A stretch of DNA of 64,000 nt from Pteria penguin (taxonomy: Eukaryota > Mollusca > Bivalvia > Pterioida > Pteriidae). A program made the position numbers and the translations under genes. Positions 24,001 to 63,138 of the stretch are shown piece after piece; within the stretch, counting starts at the first letter, position 1, and the number at the start of each line of letters is the position of its first letter. The stretch lies in the NCBI GenBank assembly GCA_035048485.1, contig CM068585.1:50111186-50175185 (forward strand), read 5' to 3'. Under the pieces are notes generated by a model that was not told the DNA's origin, made no database searches, and saw nothing but the letters and a program-made list of their open reading frames with translations.

Positions 24001-27000
24001 ATCTCACACCCTTGGGTCCTGGGCGACCCATGCACGAGAAAAGTTATGACCCTGACAAACTATACCAGATAATGCGCCCTGTCTGAAGACTGGCGTATTA
24101 AAATGACACATGTGTACTTTATACACATACAATGTACCAAAGTGCAATAGAGATTAATGTGGTGAGAGGATGGGCTTGATATCTGAGTTCGATTCTCAGG
24201 TTGTTATGTCTCGAAATCGTGTGTTTTAGGCTTATGTTGTTATATAACCATCAAACGCGACACCAACTAACCAGACAATTGACCAATAAACATGATGTAT
24301 CTCGATAAACAATAGTTAGACAGAAATTAAATCAATATGGAATATAAGACATATGGAAACACGAAATCTGGGTAAGTTTAATCTCAAATTTTAAATATGA
24401 AAGTATGAATTTCAAATTTCGTTATATTTGTTTCCTGAGTTCAAAATAGCTCTATGTATTGCTCTAAACAACAAAACTTAACACGATGACAGCACCTATC
24501 ATGCACATGATTTTATTAAGTCCTAGCAAAAAAACCAACAGACGCAAAATTTACATATATTACCCATGGTAGAAGACTGAATGACAGGGGAAGGCAAATA
24601 TTAACTGAATACATGACTGAGTGTTCCACAAAGTACTTTATAGAAAAAGACTTTTCTTCGCAACAAGTTACACTTCCATATTCTCCGGTTTAAGAATAGG
24701 TGGAGGGGTTTTTTTTTTAACGACCAGTGATCAAAACACGTTGATTGTGCTTGTAAAATAAATGTCATCTAGCCCATTAAGTACGCTCCCGTAAAGTTGT
24801 AAATTTTCAGACTAATAGTCTACCATATACATGTAAAATGTGGACATATTGTATATCCAATAATTTATTACACTAGTAAAACTGCATGTCTTCTTATGCA
24901 TAGTTATATTGAAGCACTGAAAATTCTCAGATATCAGACATTGTGAAACTTTATCACAAATGATATATATCAGAAGATATATACATATATTACGTTTACG
25001 TATTTCGGCAACTTATGTCTCTTGAAGGCCTAAATTGTGGAAATTAAAATTATAACTATTTAGACAGACAAAATGAAGACACAGCTGTACATAAGGGAGA
25101 TAATCTTTAGTTTTAAATTAAGTCAAAAACTGTTTTCTTTAAATTTGACGTATATATTTCTGGTCTACATCGAGGCACTGAAAAATGACGTAAGAAAATT
25201 AACAGAATCAGAATATAATCACCTTCAATACTGATAGCAATATTTCCACGATATCTTTTTCGTCAATATCAAAGATTTCTTCTATTTCCTCGAATGCAAT
25301 TGTCCACGAATTTTCATAAAGTTCTGAGAATTTCTCGGCTATTTTCGTGGGGTCGTATTCGACACCAATATCTGTAATTGCTGTATTGCAGTGCGTCATT
25401 TTAGCCCCAGCTGTAATACTCAGCCTGAAAAGTGAAAGCAACTAGCCTTGGTGTGATGTTTGAAGTTATCAGCTAGTTATTATTAGCTCATCCCATAAAT
25501 TACCTGAAATGAAGAGGAATTGGCATGTTAAATATCACAATTTGAAGTCAGAGGCAATGTTAGGCAGGCCGGGCCTACTATACGAAATGTATATGTAATG
25601 AGTATAGTTTCAAAGCACAGCGATACTAAACTAGGCAAATAATAAATGTCAATAGTGAAAGCCTCGAATAGAATGCGCAAGGCCAATAACCTTTCTACTT
25701 ATTGTCATAGTTTTCTCTGGTTGGATAAACGCTGGATATATACATACTTTAGCCCATAAATGTCCGAAAGTTTTTTGGACCATACTTACAAGCAAAAAAA
25801 AAAAAAAAAATAGATGATTGAATGATTGATTGATAATTGTATTACTTCACTCTACGATTTCACTTATATCGTGACGGCATCGGCTTGATGCATTGCATAG
25901 AAATTTATACCTTTGTAACGTACCCATCCAAAGCAGTGAGGGATCTGTTACCTGCCATGCCTACCGTGTTACAGGGCCTCGTTTTTTACTCTTATCAGCA
26001 AAGCTGAACAGCGATGTGCCCAGGGCGTGAGTGGAACCCGAAACCTCTCGGTCACAAGCTTAACATCTCATCCCCTGGGCTACACCGGCTTCAAACAATA
26101 CATTAAAAAGTAAAATAAAATCTTGGGAAGTGAAAGAAAATTATGTAGCAGATATGTCCTTATCATTGATAATCCTTTTCCACGACCCTTTTCCTTTTGA
26201 CTACTTAATAAAAATGTGTTCAGCTCATCACCTTGTTAATTCTTCCTCTGTTGCCTTTTTCAGTTCTTCGTTTTCATGCTGGTATTGAATTAGTTCTTGT
26301 TCGAGTTGTGTAATTCTTTGTTCCATTTGACTCTGAAGCTGAAATTCCTTTTCCTGAAACTCATCTGACCTAAAACAAGTAAGGTTACTCTGAGAAACCA
26401 TAAATGTTATATAGTTTACCAACGCAAAAATGCTAAATTGAATTTCTTTAAGCACCGTTTGTTATCAAACCTTTTTCGGTTATAAACGTAACGTAATTTT
26501 GGCGTCTGCTGATCTACTACAGAAATTTTGATAAATTCGGTAAGTATGGAATGATCAACGTACCATACAGGATCATTTTCTTTATGTTGACGTTCATTTT
26601 TCTCAGTTTTGGATACATCCTTGAGCATCATATCTTTCGGTAATTCTATCTCATCTTCTTGATAATTGACTTTTAATGTTTGTAGTTTATGCTTTATTTC
26701 ATCGTTACTATTTATTATGGCTTCTATGTCAGCTCGAATGCCATCCAATTGGCGTTGTTGTCCAGCTAGATTTGCTTTAAGCTGCAAAATTCCTTCGTCC
26801 CTGACCTTTAATTTCACTTCAATATCTGCCTTCAAATTTTCTTCTTCAGTTGATTTTCTCCTCATATAAGTCTTCTCGTCATGACTGGTGTTTCGAAATA
26901 TGTGGCGAGATTTAGCATTTTCATTAAAAGTTCCAGTAAAAACATTGTCATCTCTTGCATCATTGTAATTAGCTTCATTTCCTCTCTTACATTCTTCATT

Positions 27001-40690: not shown

Positions 40691-42055
40691 TCTAAACGCC
40701 ACATGCGTATATCTAAGACTTCTTTGAGTTTTGAGTTATTTGTGAAAGACCTAAGTTGGTAGAAAATAACGATTTAATTTTAATTTCATTTTTTCCGTGA
40801 AAAGTCAACAAGTGAAATGTTTACATTAGAGCAAGTATTCGCTTACTATATAAAAAGAATGCGTTTAATGTCATCAGACGCATATGGCTGCAATACGTGT
40901 ATACTGATGTTTTGGCTCCATAAATTAAGTACATAGATGAAGGAATGTTCTGAATAATGAATTATTACTAGGGGTCATCACTAAGGTGAACTTTATACTG
41001 ACAGGAATAATTGATCTTCAAGTAAGCGTTTTGTGAACGCTACAAATTATGTTCTGAATATATTCCATTTCGTCAAGTGAATATTTAAGCATTTTATCGA
41101 GCTCTGAGGTTCTGAACAATGCTGAATGTTATAAGCATAGTTAAGTCAATAGCTTTCCTGGCTAGTACACCGAATGATCCAGCGTTCGAGCACATAAAGC
41201 GCGTCAATGGTGCACGGTGATACTCTTTTCAGAGGAGACATTAAAATCCCAAATGCAGCAGGTAGTATTTAAGTCGTCAATATATACTTTAATAATTTTA
41301 AAGTGAGTTAGACGTAAAACAAGAAAAGAAGAAGTAGAAGCAAGCATTTCATGTCAAGATTTAATCTGTGGGGTTTCTTCCCATCCGTTTTCAATATCAA
41401 AAACGGATAGTGTCTAGTAAGATATTCTAGCGAAATGAATGGCGCATAGAAGATGATTCGTGAAAATTGATATTGCCAACCTTGATCCGACAAAGAATGG
41501 AGCACTCAATGATGCATCCAAATACAGTCATCCACTCACAAGGAGGGGTCTATTTATTAATAAGACAATGTCACATGATGTATCCAAGAATAAGAATATG
41601 ATACCATATATCAGGTCAGAGTAGTAGAATCGTAAAGATGAATTTTTAAAAAGTCTACACGTACGTTTATCTATATAGAATTTCTACATGTACCCAATTT
41701 CATTTTTTGCAATTTTTATTTATATATTTATACCTGTGTCTTTTTTTCCAAACAGTAACAGACATCGGAATATGCAAAATATAAAAAGATCTCCACTAAA
41801 TAACATTGTATATATAATGAAAAAAAAAAAACAAAAAATGAAGAAAAGATGCAGAAATTTGAAAGAATATTACAATGGAGGTTAAGCAAATAGATTTCCA
41901 TATTTATATATGGATACGGAAATGAATTCAAAATACTCAGGGCAGAGAAGTTTGGGTGGGAAGTTGTACGCATCGGTTTTAAATATATCACTGTCTTGTG
42001 GTATCTGTTTCTTTGATAACTATTGTATATTAATCTTGGTGTGTAAACAGACAAG
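40691..42055. other. no gene seen
   Basis: AT-rich; a worn SINE-like piece (about 41152-41275, with gcgttcgagcac) is the only structure noticed. Confidence 0.35.
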
Positions 42056-43638
42056 CAGAGTCATGCTGAATAGGCAATACAAGTAGAATTATGCTGAATA
42101 GGCAATACAAGTAGAATCATGCTGAACAGGCAATACAAGTAGAATCATGCTGCACAGAATCATGCTGAACAGGCAATACAAGTAGAATCATGCTGCACAG
42201 GCAATACAAGTAGAATCATACTGAACATGCAATACAAGTAGAATCATGCTGCACAGGCAATACAAGTAGAATCATGCTGCACAGGCAATACAAGTAGAAT
42301 CATGCTGAACAGGCAATACAAGTAGAATCATGCTGAACAGGCAATACAAGTAGAATCATGCTGAACAGGCAATACAAGTAGAATCATGCTGAAAAGGCAA
42401 TACAAGTAGAATCATGCTGCACAGGCAATACAAGTAGAATCATGCTGTACAGGCAATACAAGTAGAATCATGCTGAATAGGCAATACAATTAGAATCATG
42501 CTGAATAGGCAATACAATTAGAATCATGCTGAATAGGCAATACAAGTAGAATCATGCTGAATAGGCAATACAAGTAGAATCATACTGAACAGGCAATACA
42601 AGTAGAATCATGCTGAACAGGCAATACAAGTAGAATCATGCTGAATAGGCAATACAAGTAGAATCATGCTGCACAGGCAATACAAGTAGAATCATGCTGC
42701 ACAGGCAATACAAGTAGAATCATGCTGAACAGGCAATTCAAGTAGAATCATACTGAATAGGCAATACAATTAGAATCATGCTGAACAGGCAATACAAGTA
42801 GAATCATGCTGAATAGGCAATACAAGTAGAATCATGCTGAACAGGCAATACAAGTAGAATCATGCTGAATAGGCAATACAAGTAGAATCATGCTGAACAG
42901 GCAATACAAGTAGAATCATGCTGTACAGGCCATACAAGTAGAATCATACTGTATAGGCAATACAATTAGAATCATGCTGAACAGGCAATATAAGTAGAAT
43001 CATGCTGAATAGGCAATACAAGTAGAATCATGCTGAACAGGCAATACAAGTAGAATCATACTGAACAGGCAATACAAGTAGAATCATGCTGAACAGGCAA
43101 TACAAGTAGAATCATGCTGAATAAGCAATACAAGTAGAATCATGCTGAATAGGCAATACAAGTAGAATCATGCTGCACAGGCAATACAAGTAGAATCATG
43201 CTGCACAGGCAATACAAGTAGAATCATGCTGAATAGGCAATACAAGTAGAATCATACTGAATAGGCAATACAAGTAGAATCATGCTGAACAGGCAATACA
43301 AGTAGAATCATGCTGAATAGGCAATACAAGTAGAATCATGCTGAACAGGCAATACAAGTAGAATCATGCTGAATAGGCAATACAAGTAGAATTATGCTGC
43401 ACAGGCAATACAAGTAGAGTCATGCTGAATAGGCAATACAAGTAGAATCATGCTGAATAGGCAATACAAGTAGAATCATGCTGAACAGGCAATACAAGTA
43501 GAATCATGCTGAACAGGCAATACAAGTAGAATCATGCTGAATAGGCAATACAAGTAGAATCATGCTGAATAGGCAATACAAGTAGAATCATGCTGTACAG
43601 GCCATACAAGTAGAATCATGCTGAATAGGCAATACCAC
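42056..43638. repeat. 28-bp minisatellite, about 56 copies
   Basis: Head-to-tail units built on catgctgaacaggcaatac plus aagtagaat. Four main variants differ at two adjacent positions (gaacagg, gaatagg, gcacagg, gtacagg), with rarer changes such as caatacaatta and atactg. One unit near 42150 is truncated. The 28-bp period is not a multiple of three and the unit contains TAG, so it is not coding. Confidence 0.97.
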
Positions 43639-46007: not shown

Positions 46008-46322
46008 CTATAAGGGTTGCACGACTCCCTTCCCTAATAAAGGCCCATGTTCATGCAAATATAACGGTGGCCACACAACATAGTCCATGAGTGTTCCAGA
46101 TTTCGTGTAATGTCTATATGAATTCTCATCGTATGGTTTTCCTGGCTTAAAGTCAAAATGAATGTAGACTGGTGGTTCACGAATTCTCATGAGCCACGAC
46201 AGGCTCGCACATGACTTGGCATAGTGTACTGTTTTAGGTATTGTGTTGAGGTCGACCGTTGAGCCATGTTTATACTTATTCAGTTCATGATGAAGGAGAT
46301 TTGGTAGTCTGGACAGGAACAT
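46008..46322 (-). CDS. gene B, last exon: end of MIEAP domain
   Basis: 315 nt, phase 0, acceptor gtatttcag, stop at 46008. CASLSWLMRIREPPVYIHFD and YVVWPPLYLHEHGPLLGKG mark the C-terminal MIEAP domain. About 88% identical to the gene A exon. Confidence 0.88.
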   Translation of the reverse strand: MFLSRLPNLLHHELNKYKHGSTVDLNTIPKTVHYAKSCASLSWLMRIREPPVYIHFDFKPGKPYDENSYRHYTKSGTLMDYVVWPPLYLHEHGPLLGKGVVQPL

Positions 46323-49300
46323 CTGAAATACAAGAATTGAATTCTTAACGAAATTTACTCTGAAATGCTATAAAACCAACATGAATGATAAGGCAAAATT
46401 GATATGGTACTGGTTACATATAGGTCTTTCTACATGATAAAGGTCAGTTGGCCGAATATTTGTAGGAAAAACGAATTATCGTTTATTGTTGCGTTTGAAC
46501 GAAATCCTCATTAAAGTCAAACAAACAAAAAAATTACAGCACTAATCAACTCGTGCTCATAATCCACATTATACTATATAAAGATGTAAATACTACATAT
46601 ACTTATTGTATATATATGCTCATACTATACTAACATGCACAGTTGCACACATTACACATACCAACTGTATTTACGTACACATATACATGTGTTAGTGAAC
46701 AGAGTTTCTCCTCATCAGTGAATCAGTTTTCAGGTATATTCATCTTACCTCTTGCATCAAAAGAGCACAGGAAGCACCTAGTGATATACGGATGTCGCAT
46801 AATGACTTTGTCAGTGGAACATTTGTAGGAATCACAAAAGTGTCCTGAAAAGAATATAGATAGAGTTTCACCTGTGATTAATGCTTTTACATTAATGAAG
46901 GCTTGTGTGACTATTACATGAAGGTGAGTTTTATGCAAAGGCTAATGTTACAAAAACGACTTTTCTAAGCAGGTGACTTTATAAGGTGATGAAAAAGACA
47001 ACTTTCACTGTATATTAGATCCGTCAATTGGAATTTTACTCAAATCTTAACTGAAACTGCCAATGCCATTGTACAGTTACACTCATCACATTTTAATGTT
47101 CCACATATTTATGGTCTTAATAAAACTTTTCTGAACACAAATATTCTTGTTTCAAGGTACCACTTCATTCATGAAACTATGTGAAATCATGTGAAGTAAC
47201 GACAATGCAGAAGTCAAAATTAGACTCAATATATTACATATCGATGCTGCTACAGTGAATATACATGTAGTTTATATAAGAGATATAAGTCAAACTTAAT
47301 TTTTCAGGAAGCAAACAGAACATAAACAACAAAGAGACACCAAAGGGTTAACCATATCTAGAAGTCCATGGAATTAAAGGCTAATATCGTGTATAGTATC
47401 ATTTTCAGACAAATGCAAATCTTAATTTAAATTGAAGTGAAACCAAGTGTCCAGGAGGAGTTAGCGTCCTTTGTTTGCATGCAACATTTATCGCAAAAGT
47501 CCTGCAACAACTTGTGAAGTCGGGACGTAAATATAAATATATTTGTGATACATTCACCAATTTATTCATAAATGTATCACAAATTATTAACAGCAGACGA
47601 CAGTGCCCTAACCTCAAAAAACTACTAACACGTGCGAAATTTTGCATGAAAGTAAACAATAGTGTAAAGAAATGTGAAGACCCCTGATGTGGAACATGTA
47701 GTTACATCGAGAAAGGGGAAACAATAAAACTAAAATCCGGCGAAAATTTGCGAGCAACTGCCAGTATGGACTGAAAACAATGAATATGATTTATTATGCA
47801 ACATGCCCAACATGCGGGAAAAACTATATACGACAAACTGGGAAACTCAAGAGTTAGAGTACACAAATAACAGATAAAAGACCCCAGTGTTAGAAATACT
47901 CCATGTTGCGAATATTTTGCTTACTGTGCAAAGGGAACCTTCAAAATATTCCCTTTTTTCAAAATGTGGAATAATGATGAACTATTAACAGCAAAAGAGG
48001 ATTATTTCATCAAACGTTACAATTCAAAACTTAATAGAAAATAATTGTTTAGTAACTCAAATTCTTTAACTTATAAATGCTGCAATCGGACGTAATCATG
48101 ATGTAATCAGACAATCAACAATTGTTATTATGTTGTTTACTTGTTTACATCTGATGAGCCGCAATGGCGAACATACTTACGGATTAAAGTATTTACAGAA
48201 AATGGACAGTGTGATATTCTAATTATATCATTATTAAACATTGCTGTACCAAGTAAGAAAAAAGAGGAGTTACTGGCTCAGTTATGTGGCAGAAGTCACC
48301 AAGGAGCTATACAATACATGGATATAAATAATATACTAGCACATATAACACATTACAAAAATATTTTGTAGTAACAACTATTTTAAATATATATACAAGA
48401 TTTGTTTTAGTACAACCTTGACTAACACAAAATGAACTACATGTTTTTAAATGCATTTTATTTTAATCAATTAAAGTTTTTGATAAGATAAAAACCTGCT
48501 CCCGGTAGACATGGCCCATGGTGGGTAAAGTTGTGACAGCCCTTATGACTGATGATTCATATTCCTTTTCTACTTCTGTACTTATTTTATAGGCACTCTG
48601 AAATATACAACATTAGATAATTCAATAATAGTACAAATAGGATAGATATGTACTTTATCATCGATAATATTCAGTAAGATTCCAATGGTTGATGGGGGTA
48701 ACTTGGTGTAAAAGTTCAGAACTTGAGGTGTAGGCAATCTGCGTACGATTCCCGGACTGTAACTTTTCAAAGTTGGTTTCCTCTATTCTGTGTCACAGTA
48801 TTGCCGAAAATTGATGAGCATGACATCAAACAAATTACCATTATATCTATCGATAAATAATCTTGAGACAGAATGAATGAATAAGGATAATGGATTCTAA
48901 GCAAATCTAGATAAATTCAAATCTCAAATTTTAAGTCTGAATATCATATATCTGAATGTTATTTATAAAGTTGAATAATGTCATTGTGTTATTACAAGGT
49001 ACATCATTTACACGGTGATGTCACCTATTTTGCACATTGCTTTCTTAATATCATACAAGCAAAAGACCCAAACTACGCAATTAGCACATTGAAATACCAT
49101 GACTGAAGACCGAGTGACATGGAATAATAGCACATTTTGAAAGAATAAATGATTATTAAGGTTTATGTAAAGCGCATTAAGTAAATATATGTTTATTATA
49201 CATATTTTAGTCTAAAACCTTTCCAAGATCGCAAGAGAAGGGAGTGGTTTTCAGTTTACTGTCCTTCAACTGTTCAACCATGTTGGTTTTGCTTGTAACA

Positions 49301-52300
49301 AAACACTTAATCTGGCCCATTTAACATCCTATGGTAAACTTATGCATTTCCTGACTAATACCTCCCTATGTACATGTGTTTTGTGGATACTGATGCTTTG
49401 ATTTATATCTATAGCAATGATTAAGTGCACTAGCAGAACGTTAGCTTTTTGATGTGCATTATATAAAAGCACTGCTGTCAGATAACATTTATTACAAAGC
49501 TGCATTTAGTATAGATGATATACTGACACATTCAGAATGTAATTACCTTCAATATTGACAACATTAATTCGACGATATCTTTTTCATCAATGTCAAAGTT
49601 TTCTTCAATTTCTTCGAATGCATCAGTCCATGCATTGTCGTATAGTTCTGAGAATTTCTCGGCTATCTTCGTGGGGCGGTTGTCGTCACTTAGATCTGTT
49701 ATTGCTGCATTTCCATGCGTCAGTTTTGCACCAGCCACCTTACTCAGTCTGAAAAGTGAAATCAACAAGCCTCTGTGTACTTTTCGAAGACTCATGAGCT
49801 CATTATTGAAAGCACAGCTCTTAAAAACCACAATAAAAATAGATTAGAATATTAGATGTCATTACGTGTAGCCAAGGCAAAGGCAGGCAGGGTGAGTTTC
49901 CATAAATGAAAAGATATATAGATGACAGTTAATTTCTTCATACTTAAAATCAAACAGTAGATGGGAAAGTAAAATAAATCATTGGGGATGATAAAGAAAT
50001 TTTGAGAGATTTCCGTCTAATTGATATTCTTATTCAACATTACTAAAATATAATAAGCTCATCACCTTGTTAATGCTTCTTCTTTTGCCTTTCTCAGTTC
50101 CTCGTTTTCATACTGGTAATGAATACGGTCTTTTTGGAGATCTGCAATTGTTTTTTCCATATGAATGTGATCCACATTCTGAAGCTGTAATACTTTTTGT
50201 TGAAGCTCAGCCGAGCTATAACGAGTAAGATAACCTCATTAATCATAAATGTTATCTAGGTGATCTGGGGAAAAAGATAACTTGTCATAGAACCGCATTT
50301 ATCAGTAAACGTTACATAATTTCCATATCTTCATAAGTACTACTGATACTGTGGTGGATTCGGTTAGGAATACATGCTGACAATTTGCGATACGGGAGCT
50401 GCTTTTCCAGCCGGATTCTGCAATGGGTGAATTCTGGTAGGAGTGAAATATGTCTTAAAGAGTAAATCTGTTTAACTAACCATTAGACCGTTTGTACAAA
50501 ATTAATGATAAAATGACTCCATTAATTTCTAAAAGGGTGGCTCCAGAATGTTGGGTGTGTGTGTAAATGGTTCGATTTATTCCGAAATAAATGTGTCTGT
50601 TATCATCTTCAAAAGAAAGAAATGGAAAAAAGTAGCATGCATGAAGCAATAAACATTTCATTTACATATGTTTTGTTTTTCTGAACGATCTATCAAGTTA
50701 TAAATCATTGGCAGTACGCATTAAGTTTCAAAGGTTATCCACTTATTGACAATCTGCTCTTTACAGATACCTGAAATGCATCGTGGTAATCTAGGAGTTT
50801 GTATTAAGGAAAGTTAATGAATTTCATTCAATTCCAAAATAAAAGTTTTCTTAGTTTGTATCTCTTTTTCATAAAAAGTTTGAAAGCTTTTATGCAAAAA
50901 GTTTCAATATTTGAGGAACAGACGGTTAAACCATTAGCAAATTGACATAAAAGTAAAGTCAAAAGTAGCTATCCAAGAAATGAGCTATCCATGAGGGATG
51001 GTCAAATCATATATGTCAGTAGTTAGCTTAAAAGTCTAGAGTAGGGACATACGATGAATATATACAAGTGCTAATGTCCATAAATGTAAAAAAATCTTTG
51101 AGTTATATCATACATATAAGCAAACAACAGATCACACAGGAAAATAATCTCTTGGGGATGTTAAACAGATTATCAAAGTTGACATTTTCTAATAATTGTT
51201 ATTCTAACGCAGCTACTTTTTACTTATGTATATGTATCTAAACATTTTACTGAAATACGTTAAGCTCATAACCTTGTTAATGCTGCCTCGTTTGCCTTTC
51301 TGAGTTCCTCGTTCTGATGCTTGTATTGTATAATTTTTTTCTGAAAATGTGCATTTCTTTCTTCCATATGACTCTGATCCACAACTTTTTGCTGGAGCTC
51401 ATCTAACCTATTATAAGAAAGTTAACTCTCCACAACCATATATGAGTTAATGAGTTATCTACTTCACTAAACCAAAAAAAAAAACAAACAAACAAACAAA
51501 CAAACAAACAAAACAAAACAAAACACAAACACAAACAAAAACTTAAACTAAATGACTTTCTTTAATTATTGTTTGTCACAAAACCGCCTTCAGTTATAAA
51601 CTTTACATAATGTCGGCCTCTTCAGAGCAAATAAGAGATTTTGCCATGTTCAGTGAGAATAAAATTATCAACGTGACATACAAGAGCGAGCCAGTTTTCA
51701 AGCTGAATTCTGCAAGGGTTGGATTCAAGTCGGAACGATAAAGGTGTACACTGACTAACCATTAGATGGATTGCACAAATTTAATGATTTAATGAATGAA
51801 TCAATTTGTAACAGAGCCACTCTAGAAGACTTATGCGATTGGTTCGATTTATTTTGATGTGAAATTTTCTTTTATCTTCTTTAAAGGAAAGTAAATGTTT
51901 AGAAGAATTGAAATGGTAATAATTTTTATACATTAGAAAAAAAATAAAATGTTGCATGATTGAACGATTTAGCCCCTCATCTAAATATGATTTTCGGACT
52001 GATGTATCAAGTTATAAATCATGGGAGCACGCAATACGTTCCAGAAGGTATCCATTTATGACAAACTGTCCTTTGCAGATAGGCAATTGTTTTTCAGAAA
52101 ACTTACTGCATGGGGTTCAACTTCAAAATAAAAGTTTTCCTACTTTTTATTTCTTTTCGTTGGCAAGGCTAATGTACTTTTCACTTATTGTTGAATTTTT
52201 TCTAGTAAGATATATAATGAATATATACATGAACTAATGTCCATAAATGCGGAAAAAATCTTTGAGCTATTTTGATTATACCTGTAAGCAAACAATATTT

Positions 52301-55300
52301 GAACAAATGATATAGAACATTGGGTACGATACAGAGAATTTGGTAACAGATATTTCATTCTAATTGATATTCTTCTTTAACGACCGTTTCTTCTGATATT
52401 TTAACAGTTTACTAAAACATGTTGAGCTCGACACCTTGCCAATGCTTCCTCATTTGCCTTTCTTAGTTCCTCGTTTTGATACTGGTAATAAATAAGGTCT
52501 TTTTGGAGATCTGCTATTGTTTTTTCCATATAAATGTGATCCACACACTGAGGTTGAAATATTCTTTGTTGAAGCTCATTTAATCTATAAAAAATTAGAA
52601 AACTTTTAGAAGCATAAATGTTATCTAGGTCAGTTGGGGAAAAGGCTTAATTGAATTACTTTCATTACCCATATTTTGTCATATAACGATATTTACCAGT
52701 AAACGTTACATAATTTCGACATCTTCAGAACTACTAAAGACACTTTGAGAAAATCGGTTAGCTCTGCATGTCGTCAGAACTAATAATGAGATTTGAACGT
52801 ATTTGGCTAGGAAGAAATGCTGACAACTTGCCATACAAGAGTTAGTTTTCCAAACGGATTCTGCTAGGGGTGAATTCTGGGAAGAGTGAAACTAAGTATT
52901 AGACCGTTTGGATAAAAGCAATGATAAAATTAATATCAACTTGTAATAGAATTGCTCCAGAGGCTTTTTTTTATAATTGGTTCGATTTTTCCCGAATAAT
53001 TTTTCCACTGTCTGCTTTAAAGGAAAGGAAATATTTTGAAGAGTCGAAATGAAAATAACTTCTATAAATTTTCAAGAAAGTGGCATGCATGAAGCAATAA
53101 GACTTTCATCTAAATAGTTTTATTTTTCTGACTCATCTATTAATTTATAAATCATGCAATGCATCGTGGTAATCTAAGAGGTTGTTTTTAGAAATGTTTT
53201 TGCATTTTGTTCAATTCAGAAATAAATTTTTTCCTAGTTTTTCTCTCTTTTTCATAAAAAGTTCAAAAACTTTAAAACAAAACAAAAAGTTTAAATATTT
53301 GAAGAGCAAACTGTTGACCCATTGCCATTTTGACATAAAAGTAAAATCAAGAGTAGTCATCCAAGAGCAGATTCATACACGAGGGATGTATGTTGATCAA
53401 ATCATAAATGTCTGCAGTTCGGTTAAAAGAGTAGGGTAGGAAAACCAATGCCAATATTCTTTCTACTTATTGTCGGAATTCTTTCTGGTAGGATATTCGA
53501 TCAAATTATGCATGTACTAATGTGCATCCTACTACACTTTTCTTTTGGTATCTAAATATTTTATAAAAAAAATGTTAAGCTCATCACCTTGTTAATGCTT
53601 CTTCCTTTGCCTTTCTCAGTTCCTCGTTTTCATACTGGTAAAGACTGAGGTCTTTTTGGAGATCCGCAATTCTTTTTTCCATATGAATGTGATCCACATT
53701 CTGAAGCTGTAATACTTTTTGTTGAAGCTCAGCCGAGCTATAACGAGTAAGATAACCTCATTAATCATAAACGTTATCTAGGTGATCTGGGGAAAACGAG
53801 AACTTGTCATAGAACCGCATTTATCAGTAAACGTTACATAATTTCCATATCTTCATAATTACTAATGATACTGTGGTGGATTCGGTTAGGAATACATGCT
53901 GACAATTTGCGATACGGGAGCTGCTTTTCCAGCCGGATTCTGCAATGGGTGAATTCTGGTAGGAGTGAAATATGTCTTAAAGAGTAAATCTATTTAACTA
54001 ACCATTAGACCGTTTGTACAAAATTAATGATAAAATGACTGCATCAATTTCTAATAGGGTGGCTCCAGAATGTTGGGTGTGTGTGTGTGTGTGTAAATGG
54101 TTCGATTTTTTCCGAAATAAATGTGTCTGTTATCATCTTCAAAAGAAAGAAATTGAAAAAAGTAGCATGCATGAAGCAATAAACATTTCATTTACATATG
54201 TTTTATTTTTCTGAATGATCTATCAAGTTATAAATCATTGGCAGTACGCATTAAGTTTCAAAGGTTATCCACTTAATGACAATCTGCTCTTTGCAGATAC
54301 CTGCAATGCATCGTGGTAATCTAGGAGTTTGTATTAAGTAAAGTTAATGAATTTCATTCAATTCCAAAATAAAAGTTTTCTTAGTTTGTATCTCTTTTTC
54401 ATAAAAAGTTTGAAAGCTTTTATGCAAAAAATTTCAATATTTGAGGAGCAGACGGTTAAACCATTAGCAAATTGACATAAAAGTAAAGGCAAAAGTAGCT
54501 ATCCAAGAAATGAGCTATCCATGAGGGATGGTCAAATCATATATGTCAGTAGTTAGCTTAAAAGTCTAGAGTAGGGACATACGATGAATATGTACAAGTG
54601 CTAATGTCCATAAATGTAAAAAAATCTTTGAGTTATATCATACATATAAGCAAACAACAGATCACACAGGAAAATAATCTCTTGGGGATGTTAAACAGAT
54701 TATCAAAGTTGACATTTTCTAATAATTGTTATTCTAATTCAGCTACGTTTTACTTATGTATATGTATCTAAACATTTTACTGAAATATGTTAAGCTCATA
54801 ACCTTGTTAATGCTGCCTCGTTTGCCTTTCTGAGTTCCTCGTTCTGATGCTTGTATTGTATAATTTTTTTCTGAAAATGTGCATTTCTTTCTTCCATATG
54901 ACTCTGATCCACAACTTTTTCATCTAACCTATCATAAGAAAGATAACTCTCCACAACCATATATGAGTTAATGAGTTATCTACTTCACTAAACCAAAAAA
55001 AAAAAAAAACAAACAAAACAAACAAACAAACAAACAAAACAAAACAAAAACACAAGCAAAAACCTAAACTAAATGACTTTCTTTAATTACTGTTTGTCAC
55101 AAAACCGCCTTCAGTTATAAACTTTACATAATGTCGGCCTCTTCAGAGCAAATAAGAGATTTTGCCATATTCAGTGAGGATAAAATTATCAACGTGACAT
55201 ACAAGAGCGAGCCAGTTTTCCAGCCGAATTCTGCAAGGGTTGGATTCAAGTCGGAACGATAAAGGTGTACACTGACTAACCATTAGATGGATTGCACAAA

Positions 55301-58300
55301 TTGAATGATTTAATGAATGAATCAATTTGTAACAGAGCGACTCTAGAAGACTTTCGATTGGTTCGATTTATTTTGATGTGAAATTTTCTTTTATCTTCTT
55401 TAAAGGAAAGTCAATGTTTAGAAGAATTGAAATGGTAATAATTTTTATACATTAGAAAAAAAAAAATAAAATGTTGCATGATTGAACTATTTAGCCCCTC
55501 ATCTAAATATGTTTTTCGGACTGATGTATCAAGTTATAAATCATGGGAGCACGCAATACGTTCCAGAAGGTATCCATTTGTGACAAACTGTCCTTTGCAG
55601 ATAGGCAATTGTTTTTCAGAAAACTTACTGCATGGGGTTCAACTTCAAAATAAAAGTTTTCCTACTTTTTATTTCTTTTCGTTGGCAAGGCTAATATACT
55701 TTTTACTTATTGTTGAATTTTTTCTAGTAAGATATATAATGAATATATACATGAACTAATGTCCATAAATGCGGAAAAAAATCTTTGAGCTATTTTGATT
55801 ATACCTGTAAGCAAACAATATTTGAACAAATGATATAGAACAATGGGTACGATATAGAGAATTTGGTAGCAGATATTTCATTCTATTTGATATTCTTCTT
55901 TAACGACCGTTTCTTCTGATATTTTAACAGTTTACTAAAACATGTTGAGCTCGACACCTTGCCAATGCTTCCTCATTTGCCTTTCTTAGTTCCTCGTTTT
56001 GATACTGGTAATAAATAAGGTCTTTTTGGAGATCTGCTATTGTTTTTTCCATATAACTGTGATCCACACAATGAGGTTGAAATATTCTTTGTTGAAGCTC
56101 ATTTAATCTATAACAAGTAAGATAACGTTTAGAAGCATAAATGTTATCTAGGTCAGTTGGGGAAAAGGCTTAATTGAATTATTTTCATTACCCATATTTT
56201 GTCATATAACGATATTTACCAGTAAACGTTACATAATTTCGACATCTTCAGAACTACTAAAGACACTTTGAGAAAATCGGTTAGCTCTGCACGTCGTCAG
56301 AACTAATAATGAGATTTGAACGTATTTGGCTAGGAAGAAATGCTGACAACTTGCCATACAAGAGTTAGTTTTACAAACGGATTCTGCTAGGGGTGAATTC
56401 TGGGAAGAGTGAAACTAAGTATTAGACCGTTTGGATAAAAGCAATGATAAAATTAATATCAACTTGTAATAGAGTTGCTCCAGAGGCTTTTTTTTTATAA
56501 TTGGTTCAATTTTTCCCAAATAATTTTTTCCACTGTCTGCTTTAAAGGAAAGGAAATATTTTGAAGAGTCGAAATGAAAATAATTTCTATAAATTTTCAA
56601 GAAAGTGCGCGCATGAAGCAATAAGACTTTCAAAAAAATGTTAAGCTCATCACCTTGTTAATGCTTCTTCCTTTGCCTTTCTCAGTTCCTCGTTTTCATA
56701 CTGGTAAAGACTGAGGTCTTCTTGGAGATCTGCAATTCTTTTTTCCATATGAATGTGATCCACATTCTGAAGCTGAAATACTTTTTGTTGAAGCTCAGCC
56801 GACCTATGACGAGAAAGATAACTTCATAAACCATACATGTTATCTATGTAATCTGGCGAAAAAGAAAAATTGAATTTACTTTATGCATCTCTTGTCATAG
56901 GACCGCATTTATCAGAAAACTTTACATAATTTCCACATCTTCAGAACTACTACAGACACAGTGGTGAATTCGGTTAGAAAGACATGCTGACAACTTGCCA
57001 TACAAGATCTGGTTTTCCAGCCAGATTCTGCAAGTGGTGAATTCTGGTAGGAGTAAAATATCTCTCAAAGGGTAAATTTATTTAACTGACCATTAGACCG
57101 TTTGCACAAAACTAACGATAAAATGAATGCATCAACTTGTAATAGAGTTTCTCCAAATTTTTTTGTTTGTAATTGGTTCGATTTCTTCCGAAATATATGT
57201 TTCTATTATCTGCTTCAAAAAAAAAGAGGAGTTACCGGCTCAGTTATGTGGCAGAAGTCACCATGGAGCTATACAATACATGAATATAAATAATATACTA
57301 GAACATATAACACATTACAAAAATATTTGATTGTAGTGCAATTACGATACCGACTTAGGACGGTCATTTAATTTCACAAAAGCCAAACAAATGGTATGGT
57401 TAACCGGTTTACGGGCCCAACTTCCCACTCACCGTAACAGCAGAACAATCAAAAGACGTACATTTAAAAATTTATAAATAAGAAAAGAGGGTCGGAATTT
57501 AAAACAATTTCTATGAATTTTGAAAAAAAGTAACATGCATGAAGGAATAAACATTTCATTTAAATGTTTTTGGTTTTTTTGTGAATGATCTACGTGTATG
57601 AAGTTATAAATTATCGGCAGCACGCATTAATTTCCAAAGGTTATCCACTTATGACAATCGGCCCTTTGCAGATATCTGTAGTGCATCGTGGTAATCTAGG
57701 AGTTTGTTTTAAGAAAGGTTAATGCATTTGATTCAATTCCAAAATAACAATTTTCTTAGTTGTTATCTCTTTTTCATAAAAAGCTTTTAAGCAAAAAGTT
57801 TCCATTTCTGAAGAGCAAACGGTTAATCTGTTAACAAATTGACCTAAAAGTAAAGGCAAAAGTAGTCATTCAAGAATAGAGCTATGCATAATGGATGTTC
57901 AAATCATATATGTCAGTAGTTAGGTTAAAGTCTATAGTAGAATAAGCAAGACCAAGGTCTTTTCCACTTATTGTCGGAATTTTCTATGTTAGGACAAATA
58001 CGATGAATATAAATGTGCTAATGTCCATAAATGTTAAAAGAAAGAGAAATCTTGCAGTTATTTTGATCATACATATAAGCAAACAGTAGATGACAAAGGT
58101 AAATGATATCTCGGGTATGTTAAGGTAGCGATTGCACGACGTCACGGAATCAAGTCATGGGCTATCTAAACATTGAATTGTTACGTGTTCCCGTATTTCC
58201 GTTGTGATGCAATAGACATATAAGTACATGATTGTGCTACAGATGCGATATCGGAGCCCATTTCATCAACATGTGTAAATGTTTTACTAACTAAATCTTA

Positions 58301-61300
58301 TGACAATGGCGTAAGTTTACTTACGTACCTTTCTTAGTTGAACGAAAGGAAAGTAAATGTTTTAAAGACTTAAAATGGTAATAATATCTATACATTTGAA
58401 AAAAACGTGGCATGATTGAACTACTTACCCGCTCATCTAGATATTTTTAGGAGGTAAACTAGATGACTAATGTCCAATCAATTGCACTTTTCCTTTGGTA
58501 TCTAAATATCTTATTAAAAGATGTTAAGCTGATCACCTTGTGAATGCTTCCTCTTTTGCCTTTCTCAGTTCCTCGTTTTCACACTGTACGCGCTCTTGCA
58601 TTTGTTTGTAAAGGATAGTCTAACAATTGGCATATTTACAAGTGACAATGATGGAATAATTAAAATAGAAGAATGCAAAAATAGAAAGACGGATTTGTTT
58701 GCATATATAAAAGTACCATCTCGAAGGACATTCTTTTCACTAACGTACCGGTAAGTACTGATTTTGTGTCTTAAACTTTCAGTGTTTTCAAGCCGGACGT
58801 TAATATGTTAATTAATATTTGAAAAGGTTGAATTTACATGGCTAGGCACTGTCTTTCTTTGAAACCCAGCATTAGCAGTTAATAAGAATTTATAAAAAGA
58901 AACTAACAATGAGAGTGAAATGATTGTTGCATTATATGAATTAATAAAACGTTACATTATGCTTGCAAATAATATAGGATTGCATTTCTGTAAAGTTGAT
59001 AATCCACATGATACCTTGTCGAGTCTATCACTTGCAAGTTATTGTTATCAGAATCAAATGGCGCTTCGCGGGACATTCTCTGTCGTTGAAGAGGCCGGGA
59101 AATCTGATACAATTCGTAGAAATGGCTTCATTAGAATAGAATGAAGGTCAGTGATTATGGCAAGCTAATGGATGCGCGTACAAACTGTACACCTGTTTGG
59201 GAACACACGGATGATTAAAATGGTGTTAGAAGTTACTTTCATAGAACTTTTAAAAAAACAAAGAACTGTGAACGAGTCTGTCCGTACATGTACTTTGATA
59301 CTTCCAAAATAGTCACGTTTTCTGCGATCTCGTGTGTCTTCGATTTGGGTAGTCCCATGTTAACAAGTAATTAGTAATAATGCATTATACCTTTAGTAGG
59401 AGCACAGTCAGGCGCGGATCCAGAAATTTTGGTTGAGGGGGGGGGGTTTCATTCATATTTTTGTAATAATAACATGAAAAGCAATTTTCCTTAAATTCTT
59501 AGGGTCGGTTCAGTACAGTAGTTTGAAAAGTACTTTTTGTATATCATAATAATTCAAGATTTTATACATACAAACTGTGCTCAAAAGATTATAAAACTTT
59601 CTGATTAATGCCAACCATAACCATCACCCAGATAAGACCAAACAAACAAACAAATAATAAAAAAAAAACAAAACAAAAAAACAAAAACAAAAAATAACCA
59701 ACCAAACAAAAATGAAACAAACAAACAAACAAAACACGAAAGCCTTAAAATAATTACTTTCTAGAAACCTCTTCTTTCGCCTCACTCAATTTTTGTTTTA
59801 CATGACTGTAATCTGTGCTTTGAAGCTGAAGTTCATTTATCCTACAACAATAAGAACTCAATAACAACTCTGAAATGAAGTAAAACAAAGTACCAATGTA
59901 TAGGCTAATATTTGGCTCCGTTTTATATTGCCTCAACCGGAAAGCAGCAATTAGAATAATCCAAACCGAGAATCGAATTAAGTTTTCAGTTTGTTCACCC
60001 CGCCGCTTTGTGCCACAACTATTCTTGGATATCTGCATTTGCACTTTAAATTTGATGAACCCTTTGTTCATTTATCTCTATCGTATTATAATAATAATTA
60101 AATACTCAATAATTGAACACAACAACAATGGCTCAGCTTATGGGTTTTGCTACATCGACATTTATTTCATTCAATTATATGATTGCACTAATTGCTTTAT
60201 GCGTAAACTCATAAATTGTATCTAAGCAACAATCTAATCCTGCGAAAAGGGGGAAATCTTACCTACCAAGGCTTATCGTGACTTGAGTTTAAAGGGTCTC
60301 GTATATAGGGAGGCTACCAATTATAAATCAAATCATTTTCCAAACCAAGCATGGTTTTTGGGTGCACCATGAAAGTTGATAATAGTCATAAAGTAACCTA
60401 GCTGTTTTTGTTGGGATATCTGTACGACGATGGAAAACCTGAGTAGGTCTGTTAGCATATTTGGAAGTTCCATTCAACTCAGGATGACAAACATGTCAAT
60501 ACCAAACAAAATACAAAACACGATTGTTATACAATATGCACTGTGATTAATATCCACAATAGAAAGGAGGCTGTATTAAAATCATTCACAGATATCATAA
60601 ACACAAGATAAACTGAGAAAAACAAATGGAATCATGTACTAAAAGATGTATTTCATAGAATGATAAAAAGGCCAGACTGTCAAAACTTCCCCTTGAACGC
60701 CCTTTACGGCTTGGATACAGCAGTTTTGTAATATTTGATTTACAACAGGAGACACTGAGTCCAACTAAATAACTGGTCAGGCCTCCAATTTCAGGAGATC
60801 CCTGACACTCTTACATGTAAATTTTAGTTTTATATGTAAATATGCTGTTAAATTTGTTTTTACTGTTTTGAAATCATTTATCTTACCCCATGATCCTGTA
60901 CGATTTAATAGACAGAAACTATGTTCAAAAGATTAATAAAAAAAAGCGAGAAAGAAACATAAAAAAACCCAAACAAAACAAAGAAACAATCACAGAAATA
61001 TATGATGCGCATGAATTATAATAGTTACCTTCTTGAAACCTCTTCTTTCGCCATCCTCAGTTCCTGATTGAGATTTGCATTTGTTTCTTTTATGTCACTG
61101 TAGTCCTTGCTTTGAAGCCAAAGTTCATTTATCCTACAATAATGATGATTTACTTTGTTATTAAGTACAAAAAATACCAGGATATACGGTGACACAGGGC
61201 CTTGTTTTATATTGCATCAATTGGAAAACATCCAAACCAAATCCAAACCGACAGTAATCGGTAATTTTACCTCTTATTTCTTACATGTAAATATGCTGTT

Positions 61301-63138
61301 AAATTTGTTTTTACTGTTTTGAAATCATTTATCTTACCCCATGATCATGTACGTTTTAATAGACAGAAACTTTGTTCAAAAGATTAATGAAAAAAGCCAG
61401 AAAGAAACATAAAAAAGATCAAACAAAACAAAGAAACAATCACAAAATATATGATACAAATGAATTATAATAGTTACCTTCTTGAAGCCTCTTCTTTCGC
61501 CATCCTCAGTTCCTGTTTGAGATTTGCATTTGTTTCTTTTATGTCACTGTAGTCCTTGCTTTGAAGCCAAAGTTCATTTATCCTACAACAATGATGGTTT
61601 ACTTTGTTATTAAGTACAACAAATACCAGTGTATACGGTGACACAGGGCTTTGTGTTATATTGCATCAATTGGAAAACATCCAAACCAAATCCAAACCGA
61701 CAGTAATCGGTAATCGAATTAATATAAGGTTTCACTTTGTAAAGACAAGTGGACACACCCAACCCAGCCACTTTGTGAACGAAATATAAGTGTTTCTTAA
61801 ACCCAACGAGACACTCTGGCTCCTTCAAAAAATGCCTCTAATCTCCAGATACCCGTGAATGCTCACTATAATAAGTTGATGATTAGAAACAGAACTTTTT
61901 ACAAGTTCTAAAAACACGTATCTTACATTATTACTTACTCGATTCGAAGATATACAAAATGCCTTCTTAATTAATATCAACTAAAGGTAACTAATTACAT
62001 TCTGTCAGTTTCTTCTTTTGTCTTCCTCAGCTCCTCTTGGCAATGTGCATTTGCTTGTCCAATTTGAATGTGATATTCACTTCGAAGCTGAAGGGCCTCT
62101 TGTTGAAGTTTATCTACCCTATTACAATAATAATTTAATACTCCATAATTAAATACAATACCAATGGCTAAGTTTTTGCCATAACAAAATTCATTTCATT
62201 AAATTATATGATTGTACTAATTGCATTGTTCGTGAACTCATATTTTTTACCTATGCAACAAACTAATCCTAAGCAAAGGGACATCTTTTACATGCAAATG
62301 TATATTGAGGCTTGAATTTATTTCATCTCCTATATATGGAGGCAGATGATCATGAATAAAATCATTTTCACACCCAAACCATGGTTTTCAGAATGCATCA
62401 TGAAAGATGATAACAGTCAGGATGCAACGTAATTGTTTATAGTGTGATCTTCTGTACCAGGAGGGACAACATAAATTGGCCATGGAGAATATTTGGTAAA
62501 CTGAGGATGTCCCTTTCAACTGAGGAAGACAAACATGTCAATAACAACCAAAATAAAAAAACACACTTGTTATACAATGCACTGAATAATATCCACAATA
62601 GAAAGGAGGGTAGACAATTAAAGATGTAAATTTACGTTGTATCGTTTTCATATATGATTTGTACGAATGCATTTTTACATTTGAATTTATCGCAGTTGTA
62701 TCTTTTACATATGCACTTTCATGGGCAATTCTAACTTTGAAAAACCATTGTGGTGAAACATTAAGTTTGTGTTTATGTATTTATGAATGTACATTTTATT
62801 ATAAGACAATAGTTTGCATTTCTAAATACTGCCACTTAACGCTTTGTAGAATATACACTCTACAATTCTGCATCTGTAAAGTGTAGATGTTTGAAGCATT
62901 GCACTGCCCATATTTGGAAAAAAATGGTAACAAATGTTGTCTTATCACAGATATACAAAAAGGCTAAGGAATGCATTTTGTTAATATAATGTCGTACGGA
63001 AATCCTTTCAATAAAGACAAATTGCTAAACATAAATCACAACCTTGTTAAAGCATTTGTCTTTTCCTTTTCTAGTTTTTCAATTCTATTGCGCAATGTCT
63101 CACTTTCACGCTGATGCTCTTGTTCCAGTGTTACTAAC
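46008..63138 (-). CDS. gene B: MIEAP/SPATA18-like protein with multiplied coiled-coil exons, 5' end outside window
   Basis: Minus-strand spliced gene with sixteen supported exons, 5' to 3': 63043-63138, 61999-62118, 61478-61582, 61029-61133, 59758-59841, 56654-56803, 55958-56107, 54803-54928, 53588-53737, 52435-52584, 51273-51407, 50066-50215, 49547-49748, 48496-48597, 46749-46844, 46008-46322. The joined frame is open for about 744 codons to a stop. The first twelve exons (about 507 codons) are coiled coil, and all introns between them are in phase 2. The last four form the MIEAP domain and match gene A one for one. Membrane segments or a signal peptide are not visible. A MIEAP-like role at mitochondria is inferred from homology only. 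The most 5' exon is in phase 2, so the start lies beyond the right edge. Confidence 0.85.
46749..46844 (-). CDS. gene B, MIEAP-domain exon
   Basis: 96 nt, phases 0/0, acceptor cttttcag, donor CAAGAG|GTAAGA. Encodes FVIPTNVPLTKSLCDIRISL. Confidence 0.85.
47475..48060 (+). pseudogene. GIY-YIG endonuclease relic of a Penelope-like element
   Basis: Plus-strand peptide blocks, spread over two frames with stops: CPNLKKLLTRAKF, KKCEDP-stop-CGTC, then MIYYATCPTCGKNYIRQTG (GIY-YIG core with a Cys-x2-Cys pair), VRVHK, and KDPSVRNTPCCEYF...FPFFKMW...AKEDYFIKRYN. This order is that of the C-terminal endonuclease of Penelope-like retroelements. No reverse transcriptase part is present upstream. It lies antisense inside gene B's intron. 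Confidence 0.75.
48148..48182 (+). ncRNA. possible decayed hammerhead ribozyme motif
   Basis: CTGATGAG, a short CC-GCAAT-GG stem-loop and CGAAC follow the endonuclease relic by about 100 bp. Penelope-like elements are known to carry minimal hammerhead motifs with a CUGAUGA...GAAA core. Here GAAA reads GAAC, and a matching cleavage-site strand is not clear, so activity is unlikely. Confidence 0.35.
48245..48375 (+). repeat. dispersed repeat R1, copy 2 (truncated)
   Basis: Starts aaaagaggagttactggctc like the copy at 21862 and stops at cattacaaaaatatt. It directly follows the Penelope-like fragment, so R1 may be the 3' end of that element. Confidence 0.7.
48496..48597 (-). CDS. gene B, MIEAP-domain exon
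   Basis: 102 nt, phases 0/0, acceptor gtatatttcag, donor GAGCAG|GTTTTT. Encodes AYKISTEVEKEYESSVIRAV. Confidence 0.85.
49547..49748 (-). CDS. gene B, first MIEAP-domain exon
   Basis: 202 nt; first base completes a split codon, ends in phase 0 at TTGAAG|GTAATT. Encodes KIAEKFSELYDNAWTDAFEE and an acidic IDEKDIVELML segment. Confidence 0.87.
50066..50215 (-). CDS. gene B, coiled-coil exon A1
   Basis: 150 nt in phase 2/2, donor ACAAG|GTGATG. Starts SAELQQKVLQLQNVDHIHME, ends YQYENEELRKAKEEALTR. Nearly identical to A2 and A3, including flanking intron. Confidence 0.87.
51273..51407 (-). CDS. gene B, coiled-coil exon B1
   Basis: 135 nt in phase 2/2, acceptor cttataatag, donor ACAAG|GTTATG. Starts LDELQQKVVDQSHMEERNAH, ends HQNEELRKANEAALT. 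Confidence 0.85.
51475..51545. repeat. (AAAC)n / (AAAAC)n microsatellite
   Basis: Lies in the intron upstream of exon B1; its duplicate lies at 54997-55060 upstream of B2 with a different length, so the tract has changed since the block duplicated. Confidence 0.92.
52435..52584 (-). CDS. gene B, coiled-coil exon C1
   Basis: 150 nt in phase 2/2, acceptor tttttatag, donor GCAAG|GTGTCG. Starts LNELQQRIFQPQCVDHIYME, ends YQYQNEELRKANEEALA. Confidence 0.85.
53588..53737 (-). CDS. gene B, coiled-coil exon A2
   Basis: 150 nt in phase 2/2. Differs from A1 mainly by KRIADLQKDLSL in place of KTIADLQKDRIH. Intron sequence downstream and upstream is almost the same as around A1. Confidence 0.87.
54803..54928 (-). 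CDS. gene B, coiled-coil exon B2
   Basis: 126 nt in phase 2/2. Identical to B1 in its last 41 codons but lacks 9 bp near the 5' end (LDELQQK becomes LDEK), removing three residues and keeping the frame. Confidence 0.83.
54997..55060. repeat. (AAAC)n microsatellite
   Basis: Duplicate of the tract at 51475, within the second A-B-C block. Confidence 0.92.
55958..56107 (-). CDS. gene B, coiled-coil exon C2
   Basis: 150 nt in phase 2/2. LNELQQRIFQPHCVDHSYME, two residues different from C1 in this segment. Acceptor cttgttatag, donor GCAAG|GTGTCG. Confidence 0.86.
56654..56803 (-). CDS. gene B, coiled-coil exon A3
   Basis: 150 nt in phase 2/2. SAELQQKVFQLQNVDHIHME and DLQEDLSLYQYENEELRK. It lies 696 bp from C2, against 1153 bp between C1 and A2, so about 457 bp of intron is missing here. 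The intron on its other side carries an R1 insertion. Confidence 0.86.
57222..57480 (+). mobile_element. dispersed repeat R1, copy 3, inserted in the A3-unit intron
   Basis: Sequence left (tctgcttcaaaa) and right (aagtaacatgcatgaag) is continuous in the A1 and A2 introns near 50610 and 54150, so this roughly 250-bp piece is an insertion with two empty sites for comparison. The word aaaagagg occurs at both edges but also starts other R1 copies, so it is not a safe target duplication. Confidence 0.75.
58537..58620 (-). pseudogene. truncated coiled-coil exon relic in gene B
   Basis: The last 50 or so nt match the A-type exons (CENEELRKAKEEAFT, donor ACAAG|GTGATC). The 5' part is unrelated (ILYKQMQERVQ). 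The only acceptor-like site (attgttag) would give a phase-0 start, incompatible with the preceding phase-2 exon at 59758. Probably skipped. Confidence 0.55.
59640..59735. repeat. (AAAC)n-rich low-complexity tract
   Basis: Repeated aaac/aaacaa words just downstream (gene sense) of exon 59758-59841. Confidence 0.9.
59758..59841 (-). CDS. gene B, coiled-coil exon E9
   Basis: 84 nt in phase 2/2, acceptor attgttgtag, donor AGAAA|GTAATT. Encodes INELQLQSTDYSHVKQKLSE then AKEEVSR. A shorter relative of the two exons upstream. Confidence 0.8.
61029..61133 (-). CDS. gene B, coiled-coil exon E10
   Basis: 105 nt in phase 2/2, donor AGAAG|GTAACT. INELWLQSKDYSDIKETNAN then LNQELRMAKEEVSRR. Confidence 0.85.
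61478..61582 (-). CDS. gene B, coiled-coil exon E11
   Basis: 105 nt in phase 2/2. Differs from E10 by two residues (LKQEL for LNQEL, EEASR for EEVSR). Confidence 0.85.
61999..62118 (-). CDS. gene B, coiled-coil exon E12
   Basis: 120 nt in phase 2/2, acceptor attgtaatag, donor AGAAT|GTAATT. VDKLQQEALQLRSEYHIQIG then CQEELRKTKEETDRM. Its downstream-strand flank (62140-62420) resembles that of E9 (60100-60420). Confidence 0.82.
63043..63138 (-). CDS. gene B, most 5' coiled-coil exon visible (E13)
   Basis: 96 nt in phase 2/2, acceptor ctgctgtag, donor ACAAG|GTTGTG. LEQEHQRESETLRNRIEKLE then KEKTNALT. Requires further exons beyond the right edge. Confidence 0.8.

Follow-up and report, generated by a model that had tools for sequence, protein, structure and literature searches.

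Probable growth of a coiled-coil rod by unequal exchange among symmetric exons in a MIEAP-family gene of Pteria penguin

Introduction

The repeats of the human nebulin gene, NEB, encode actin-binding repeats. In its triplicate region, exons 82-105 form three 10-kb blocks of eight exons that are prone to changes in copy number, and this is the closest published case that we found, judging here and below from the part of each cited source available to us (PMC9109913), to the locus described here. That locus is gene B, a gene of the MIEAP family in the bivalve Pteria penguin, located on the minus strand of a 64-kb window, the whole stretch of DNA analysed (C6:50111186-50175185, in an assembly of 838,482,794 bases and 49 contigs). 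As in nebulin, a multi-exon block is tandemly repeated inside a gene for a repeat protein; in gene B, however, the block measures 3.5 kb, comprises three coiled-coil exons and is present twice, a chimeric exon is still readable, and the case is known from one genome. Adjacent homologous exons within one gene are also described in mutually exclusive splicing (PMC9741552). There one exon substitutes for the other, whereas the equal phases of the gene B exons (phase 2-2) permit their joint inclusion in one transcript, which could lengthen the protein.

Gene B shares with Mieap/SPATA18 a C-terminal MIEAP domain behind a coiled coil. Human Mieap has a role in mitochondrial quality control and in condensates, and both of its coiled coils lie within residues 92-311, as compared with a rod of 507 residues for gene B in the window alone (PMC10845071). 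The family is reported to be over-expressed in mussel gill (PMC5549309), and one MIEAP-family orthogroup has 53.1 members per species in bivalves, as compared with 0.6 in the other species examined (PMC8382680). That expansion is described as growth by gene copies, with exons unmentioned in the available text, whereas gene B appears to grow internally. We found no report of exon duplication in MIEAP genes in the open-licence literature, which was covered in part through top-ranked results only.

A recent three-exon duplication and a chimeric exon

Our analysis suggests that the rod of gene B has probably grown by unequal exchange among symmetric coil exons, the latest of which made the chimeric exon A2, together with other lengthenings. 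Reading the minus strand with AG acceptor and GT donor sites, we found seven related coil exons at 50066-56803: A1 (50066-50215), B1 (51273-51407), C1 (52435-52584), A2 (53588-53737), B2 (54803-54928), C2 (55958-56107) and A3 (56654-56803). All are in phase 2-2, which they share with five upstream exons, and all are 150 bp long except B1 (135 bp) and B2 (126 bp), the latter carrying a 9-bp in-frame deletion relative to B1. The initial annotation, made from the letters alone, had recognized the seven exons but ordered them A1-B1-C1-A2-B2-C2-A3. As the gene lies on the minus strand, the block is transcribed A3-C2-B2-A2-C1-B1-A1, and the array runs further upstream.

Self-BLAST aligned 50045-53108 with 53567-56632 at 96.7% identity over 3080 columns, the top-scoring match among the 132 pairs listed for the window. 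Copy 1 (50045-53566) contains A1, B1, C1 and a 458-bp intron piece (53109-53566), and copy 2 (53567-56632) contains A2, B2 and C2 without a counterpart of that piece; both lie in the same orientation inside gene B, with the frame kept. The copies are offset by 3522 bp at exon A, 3523 bp at exon C, and 3521 bp at one end and 3530 bp at the other of exon B, since B2 has lost 9 bp in frame. Mismatches affect 74 of 2626 intron columns (2.82%, with seven gap events), seven of 150 exon columns in A, two of 150 in C and none of 126 in B, which has one gap; over the 300 bp just upstream, A1 and A2 are 98.0% identical. The recent tandem duplication, the near-identical introns and the constant offsets first noticed in this block were thus recovered, the offsets to within a few bases.

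A shortening of the A3 unit by about 457 bp had likewise been noted, and the A2-to-A3 spacing of 3066 bp is indeed 456 bp shorter, the 458-bp piece being absent from the intron that separates A3 from C2. We reject, however, the proposal that A3 begins a third unit, because its unit is only ~84% identical to those of A1 and A2, against 98.0% upstream of A1 and A2 themselves; A3 is rather their older upstream partner. The piece 53109-53566 matches the equivalent intron stretches of adjacent units at ~76% identity (53155-53440 versus 54302-54575 and 50772-51045) and is therefore ancestral, not inserted.

The alignment of A1, A2 and A3 shows that the 5' part of A2, with its upstream intron, is A1-like, and that its 3' part, with ~20 bp of intron, is A3-like. 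At 72 sites A2 matches just one of the two. The best split leaves 59 A1-like and five A3-like sites 5' of the switch, against none and eight, respectively, 3' of it (Fisher 1.1e-7; not one of 100000 label shuffles did as well, both statistics treating sites as independent). The switch point maps to the interval 53649-53710, within exon A2 itself, which places the hybrid at the inner junction of the two copies. Four of the A3-like sites 5' of the switch are scattered in the intron and look as private changes of A1 would; the fifth (53672) adjoins the switch. Such a chimera is the expected product of one unequal crossover, which makes A3 the older partner and agrees with the unequal exchange originally suggested.

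Because the exon-intron units resemble each other, misaligned chromosomes could exchange between them. In the latest exchange, the 5' part of A1 would have been joined to the 3' part of A3, giving rise to A2 and duplicating C-B; the arrangement A3-C-B-(A1/A3)-C-B-A1 is exactly what such a crossover, with A1 misaligned to A3, would leave. It would add 145 codons in frame, or 142 after the 9-bp loss in B2. The product should hold 53109-53566 twice, and the second copy is absent between A3 and C2; the intron piece beside A3 may have been deleted separately later, or may already have been absent from one of the recombining chromosomes. The latest copy is an ordinary, known kind of mutation that happens to be unusually well resolved. 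Tandem growth of exons is already well known; a recombination point still readable inside a coding exon is useful for the study of rod growth.

Gene model, MIEAP domain and rod

The window (GC 33.7%, without any N) carries two minus-strand MIEAP-family genes, gene A at ~20.7-27 kb and gene B from 46.0 kb to past the right edge. In order of transcription, gene B within the window comprises E13 (63043-63138, 96 bp), E12 (61999-62118, 120 bp), E11 (61478-61582) and E10 (61029-61133), both of 105 bp, E9 (59758-59841, 84 bp), the seven exons from A3 to A1, and then the domain exons T1 (49547-49748), T2 (48496-48597), T3 (46749-46844) and T4 (46008-46322), which holds the stop codon; E14 lies past the window edge. 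All 12 coil exons have an AG acceptor, a GT donor, a length divisible by 3 (84-150 bp) and phase 2-2, and the introns between these symmetric exons measure ~0.3-3 kb. The 16 joined exons give 744 codons whose sole stop is terminal, with 16/16 acceptors and 15/15 donors kept and the frame open. Between A3 and E9 lies U8 (58536-58586, minus strand), a decayed 3' end of a unit exon in which we saw no in-phase acceptor, the phase being judged by eye. The intron upstream of A3 also holds a copy (57217-57452) of a dispersed repeat of ~110-265 bp, whose other copies, 90-97% alike, lie at 21856-22095, 48255-48366 and L011:4348-4612.

Spliced together, T1-T4 match the Pfam MIEAP profile PF16026 over positions 1-194 of 195 (E=4.6e-16, 59.8 bits, cut-off 27), in accordance with the MIEAP-like character proposed at the outset. 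The domain begins in T1, which by itself scores 15.6 bits, under the cut-off; the open reading frame of T4 matches on its own (3.1e-10). Gene B is thus a MIEAP-family gene with its C-terminal domain behind a coiled coil, and its protein may, by analogy, act as a Mieap-like mitochondrial scaffold. Its closest animal relatives are oyster proteins named after assorted coiled-coil proteins (48-51% identity in the domain), whereas the best E-value belongs to a multi-domain protein from a bacterial metagenome-assembled genome (MAG), with 29% identity. A sequence search at E<=1 returned no solved structure for the domain. A DUF2805 match in gene B falls under the DUF2805 cut-off, and the two coil exons tested against Pfam gave matches only under the curated cut-offs, so that a known Pfam domain was rejected for them.

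The 507 residues of the rod within the window include two prolines and one glycine. We judged the coiled coil by hydrophobic periodicity, in place of a dedicated coiled-coil predictor: the windowed signal peaks at 3.5 residues (z 4.4 versus 300 shuffles), with z 4.1 at 3.6 residues. Relatives with long rods ahead of the domain also exist.

Paralogues and the history of the units

The paralogue gene A has a single exon of this kind (gA, 26232-26369, minus strand, 138 bp, phase 2-2), as the initial annotation had it. A second paralogue, C (C6:50285000-50314999), lies ~135 kb from gene B and, with fewer copies, serves as a reference for the growth of its rod. Paralogue C has the exon order of gene B and intact T1-T4, with one E10/E11 exon, one A exon (pA), two B-like exons (pB' and pB'') and a distant pX, that is, three close relatives and one distant relative of the seven exons of gene B; its E9 counterpart contains a stop. 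Exons pB' and pB'' form a tandem pair, 411 bp apart and 81% identical, and the exon-intron DNA around A3 and U8 parallels pA-pB''. The anatomy of the locus, the exon phases, the chimera and the paralogue with fewer copies can all be read at the level of sequence.

Exons A, B and C derive from a single exon-intron unit by copying, and the identities between types are 75-85% in exons and 61-79% in the upstream 300 bp; by these sequences, the coil units are older than the 3.5-kb block. We compared 28 exon pairs, not independent of each other, drawn from A1-A3, B1-B2, C1-C2 and gA. Nonsynonymous divergence (dN) was lower than synonymous divergence (dS) in 27 of them, the exception being C1-C2, where there are replacement changes only. 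Exon identity exceeded upstream-intron identity in 27 of the 28 as well; A1-A2 departs from this because A2 is chimeric. As dN/dS reaches ~0.8 and the pairs are not independent, the pattern is a tendency rather than a test.

A tree of 11 units, each consisting of an exon with 350 bp upstream and two of them long-branched, joined A1 with the 5' part of A2 (100/100), C1 with C2 (100/100), B1 with B2 (99/98) and A3 with A1/A2 (97/96). The pA unit joins the A group with modest support (80/82), and pB' and pB'' pair together, not with B1/B2. The tree thus suggests that A1 and A3 probably split after genes B and C had parted, and that the 3.5-kb event came later still.

Other lengthenings of the rod

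Gene B contains a second tandem duplication, of 449 bp (60824-61714, minus strand; self-BLAST), each copy of which carries one phase 2-2 coil exon, E10 or E11. The copies differ at 21 of 335 intron columns and two of 105 exon columns, both exon differences being replacement changes by translation, and the duplication would add 35 codons. Just beyond the right edge, exon E14 (64545-65237 on the window scale, 693 bp, phase 2-2) contains a 42-bp in-frame repeat of 13.5 copies (92%; 64579-65146, or L008:579-1146), which encodes 14-residue units of two heptads, e.g. KGQLHQYENDNDQL. Paralogue C has ~2.5 copies, compared with which gene B would have expanded this repeat also. The suggestion of a gene that lengthens its rod is supported in so far as gene B has lengthened more than once, and gene B may be actively lengthening. 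More speculatively, one rod may be lengthening at three scales, namely the 14-residue repeat, the 35-residue exon and the three-exon block of 145 residues, so that its length would be evolving, perhaps still polymorphic, and tuning assembly or condensate state; we regard this as a tentative idea, with the odds leaning against it.

In human Mieap, condensates lose mobility when the coiled-coil region is removed (37.4% versus 80.4% recovery within 15 min), and multi-phase structures are no longer formed (PMC10845071). Rod length is thus a plausible functional dial, by analogy, in a family that has expanded in bivalves (PMC8382680), and we propose that a longer gene B rod could alter spacing or assembly.

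Alternative explanations

Several observations weigh against growth by unequal exchange. The intron of A3 is deleted on the 3' side of the switch, so that by that flank a short gene-conversion tract in A2 is inseparable from a crossover. Both C1-C2 substitutions alter an amino acid and B2 carries a deletion, and constraint on the new copy is therefore not demonstrated. Some older exon pairs (A1-gA, A1-A3) have a dN/dS near 0.8, and the decay of U8 indicates that not every unit was retained. Finally, the copies differ in their introns by 2.8%, as alleles might, and a haplotype misassembly could therefore leave the same picture.

The alternative that survives best, although we consider it unlikely, is that the copies are real DNA but are mostly skipped in the mRNA, or that the gene is becoming a pseudogene. 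Symmetric exons can be skipped without a frame shift, predicted isoforms of Ostrea edulis are distinguished by 29- and 34-residue blocks, and both the decayed U8 and the stop in the E9 counterpart of paralogue C would fit with such a fate. However, gene B itself has kept every splice site and an open frame, and most exon pairs have a lower dN than dS. All rod exons are probably spliced in, which would make the rod longer.

An assembly artefact appears improbable. Two haplotypes would here have been joined head to tail at exon A, the true gene being A3-C-B-A1 with a 458-bp heterozygous deletion. A divergence of 2.8% is within the allelic range for bivalves, an alternative allele could likewise lack the 458-bp piece that is absent from one copy, and A1, A2 and A3 have in common an identical 37-bp stretch into which the switch may fall. 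Yet the assembly has 49 contigs, the one bearing the window measuring 60.7 Mb, and the window, free of any N, runs through a 1.6-kb array of 28-bp units; long reads are therefore likely, and one would not expect them to be joined on the strength of a 37-bp overlap. A search of the genome with 52387-52743 found seven places, all on C6 (C1, C2, A3, A1, A2, U8 and pA), and no leftover haplotype contig, the search giving best candidates only, so that the more distant B and gA exons are not among the matches listed. The two further lengthenings in gene B also speak against such an artefact.

A non-homologous or replication-based tandem duplication, followed by a gene conversion in which A3 overwrote the 3' half of A2, would fit with the likeness of A2 to A3 being traceable only ~20 bp past the exon, but it needs two events where one crossover accounts for both the duplication and the chimera, and we give it little credence.

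MIEAP genes of the genome and of other bivalves

A search of the genome with PF16026 gave at least 65 exon-level matches, 59 of them on C6; five have internal stops and some come from one gene. This number agrees with the published expansion of the family in bivalves (PMC8382680).

Coil repeats were also found in other bivalves. We scanned 57 relatives for internal repeats with ungapped windows (50 residues in 24, 40 residues in 33), as a blastp self-comparison had found no repeats in 24 relatives even though P0010 visibly has one. Coil repeats were read in P0005, P0010, P0030 and P0043: 37-residue repeats in P0043 of Ostrea edulis (34/40 identical), a 50-residue repeat in P0030 of the same species (29/40) and a 42-residue repeat in P0010 of Crassostrea gigas (36/50). 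These are less alike than those of gene B, in which a 50-residue stretch recurs 50/50, the relatives being compared as proteins. Several other high scorers were isoforms of the same genes or repeat parts outside the coil (P0052, and P0025-P0027 with repeats of whole domains); many relatives gave weak self-matches only.

P0025 and P0026 (QS748_02945 and QS748_02950), labelled as from a MAG of Candidatus Endonucleobacter bathymodioli, contain four and two tandem MIEAP domains, respectively. Transfer from host to bacterium is possible, with contamination as an alternative. No word beginning with 'mieap' occurs in the available main text on this parasite of mussels and its apoptosis inhibitors of host origin (PMC11521996), and a search of genome contigs for bacterial relatives of P0026 gave 23 pattern matches, of which none was confirmed.

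In the 20-kb regions upstream of 10 of the 65 PF16026 matches, surveyed for at most five direct repeats and eight arrays per region, tandem arrays are common. Among the arrays listed, all those >1 kb have stops in all sense frames and some of those <1 kb are open; one 42-bp array (L024) is open in one frame over its repeats but is not coil-like. Very long minisatellites occur upstream of other MIEAP paralogues (L020, L028 and L032), e.g. 58 bp x 172 copies, and a 28-bp minisatellite array of ~1.6 kb (42051-43635) lies between genes A and B; the genome seems rich in long minisatellites. Elsewhere, a near-full MIEAP domain (profile 2-193) lies within a single open frame of 1088 codons (G000:C3:6958607-6959200, L019), in one piece, unlike the exon-split copies of the window.

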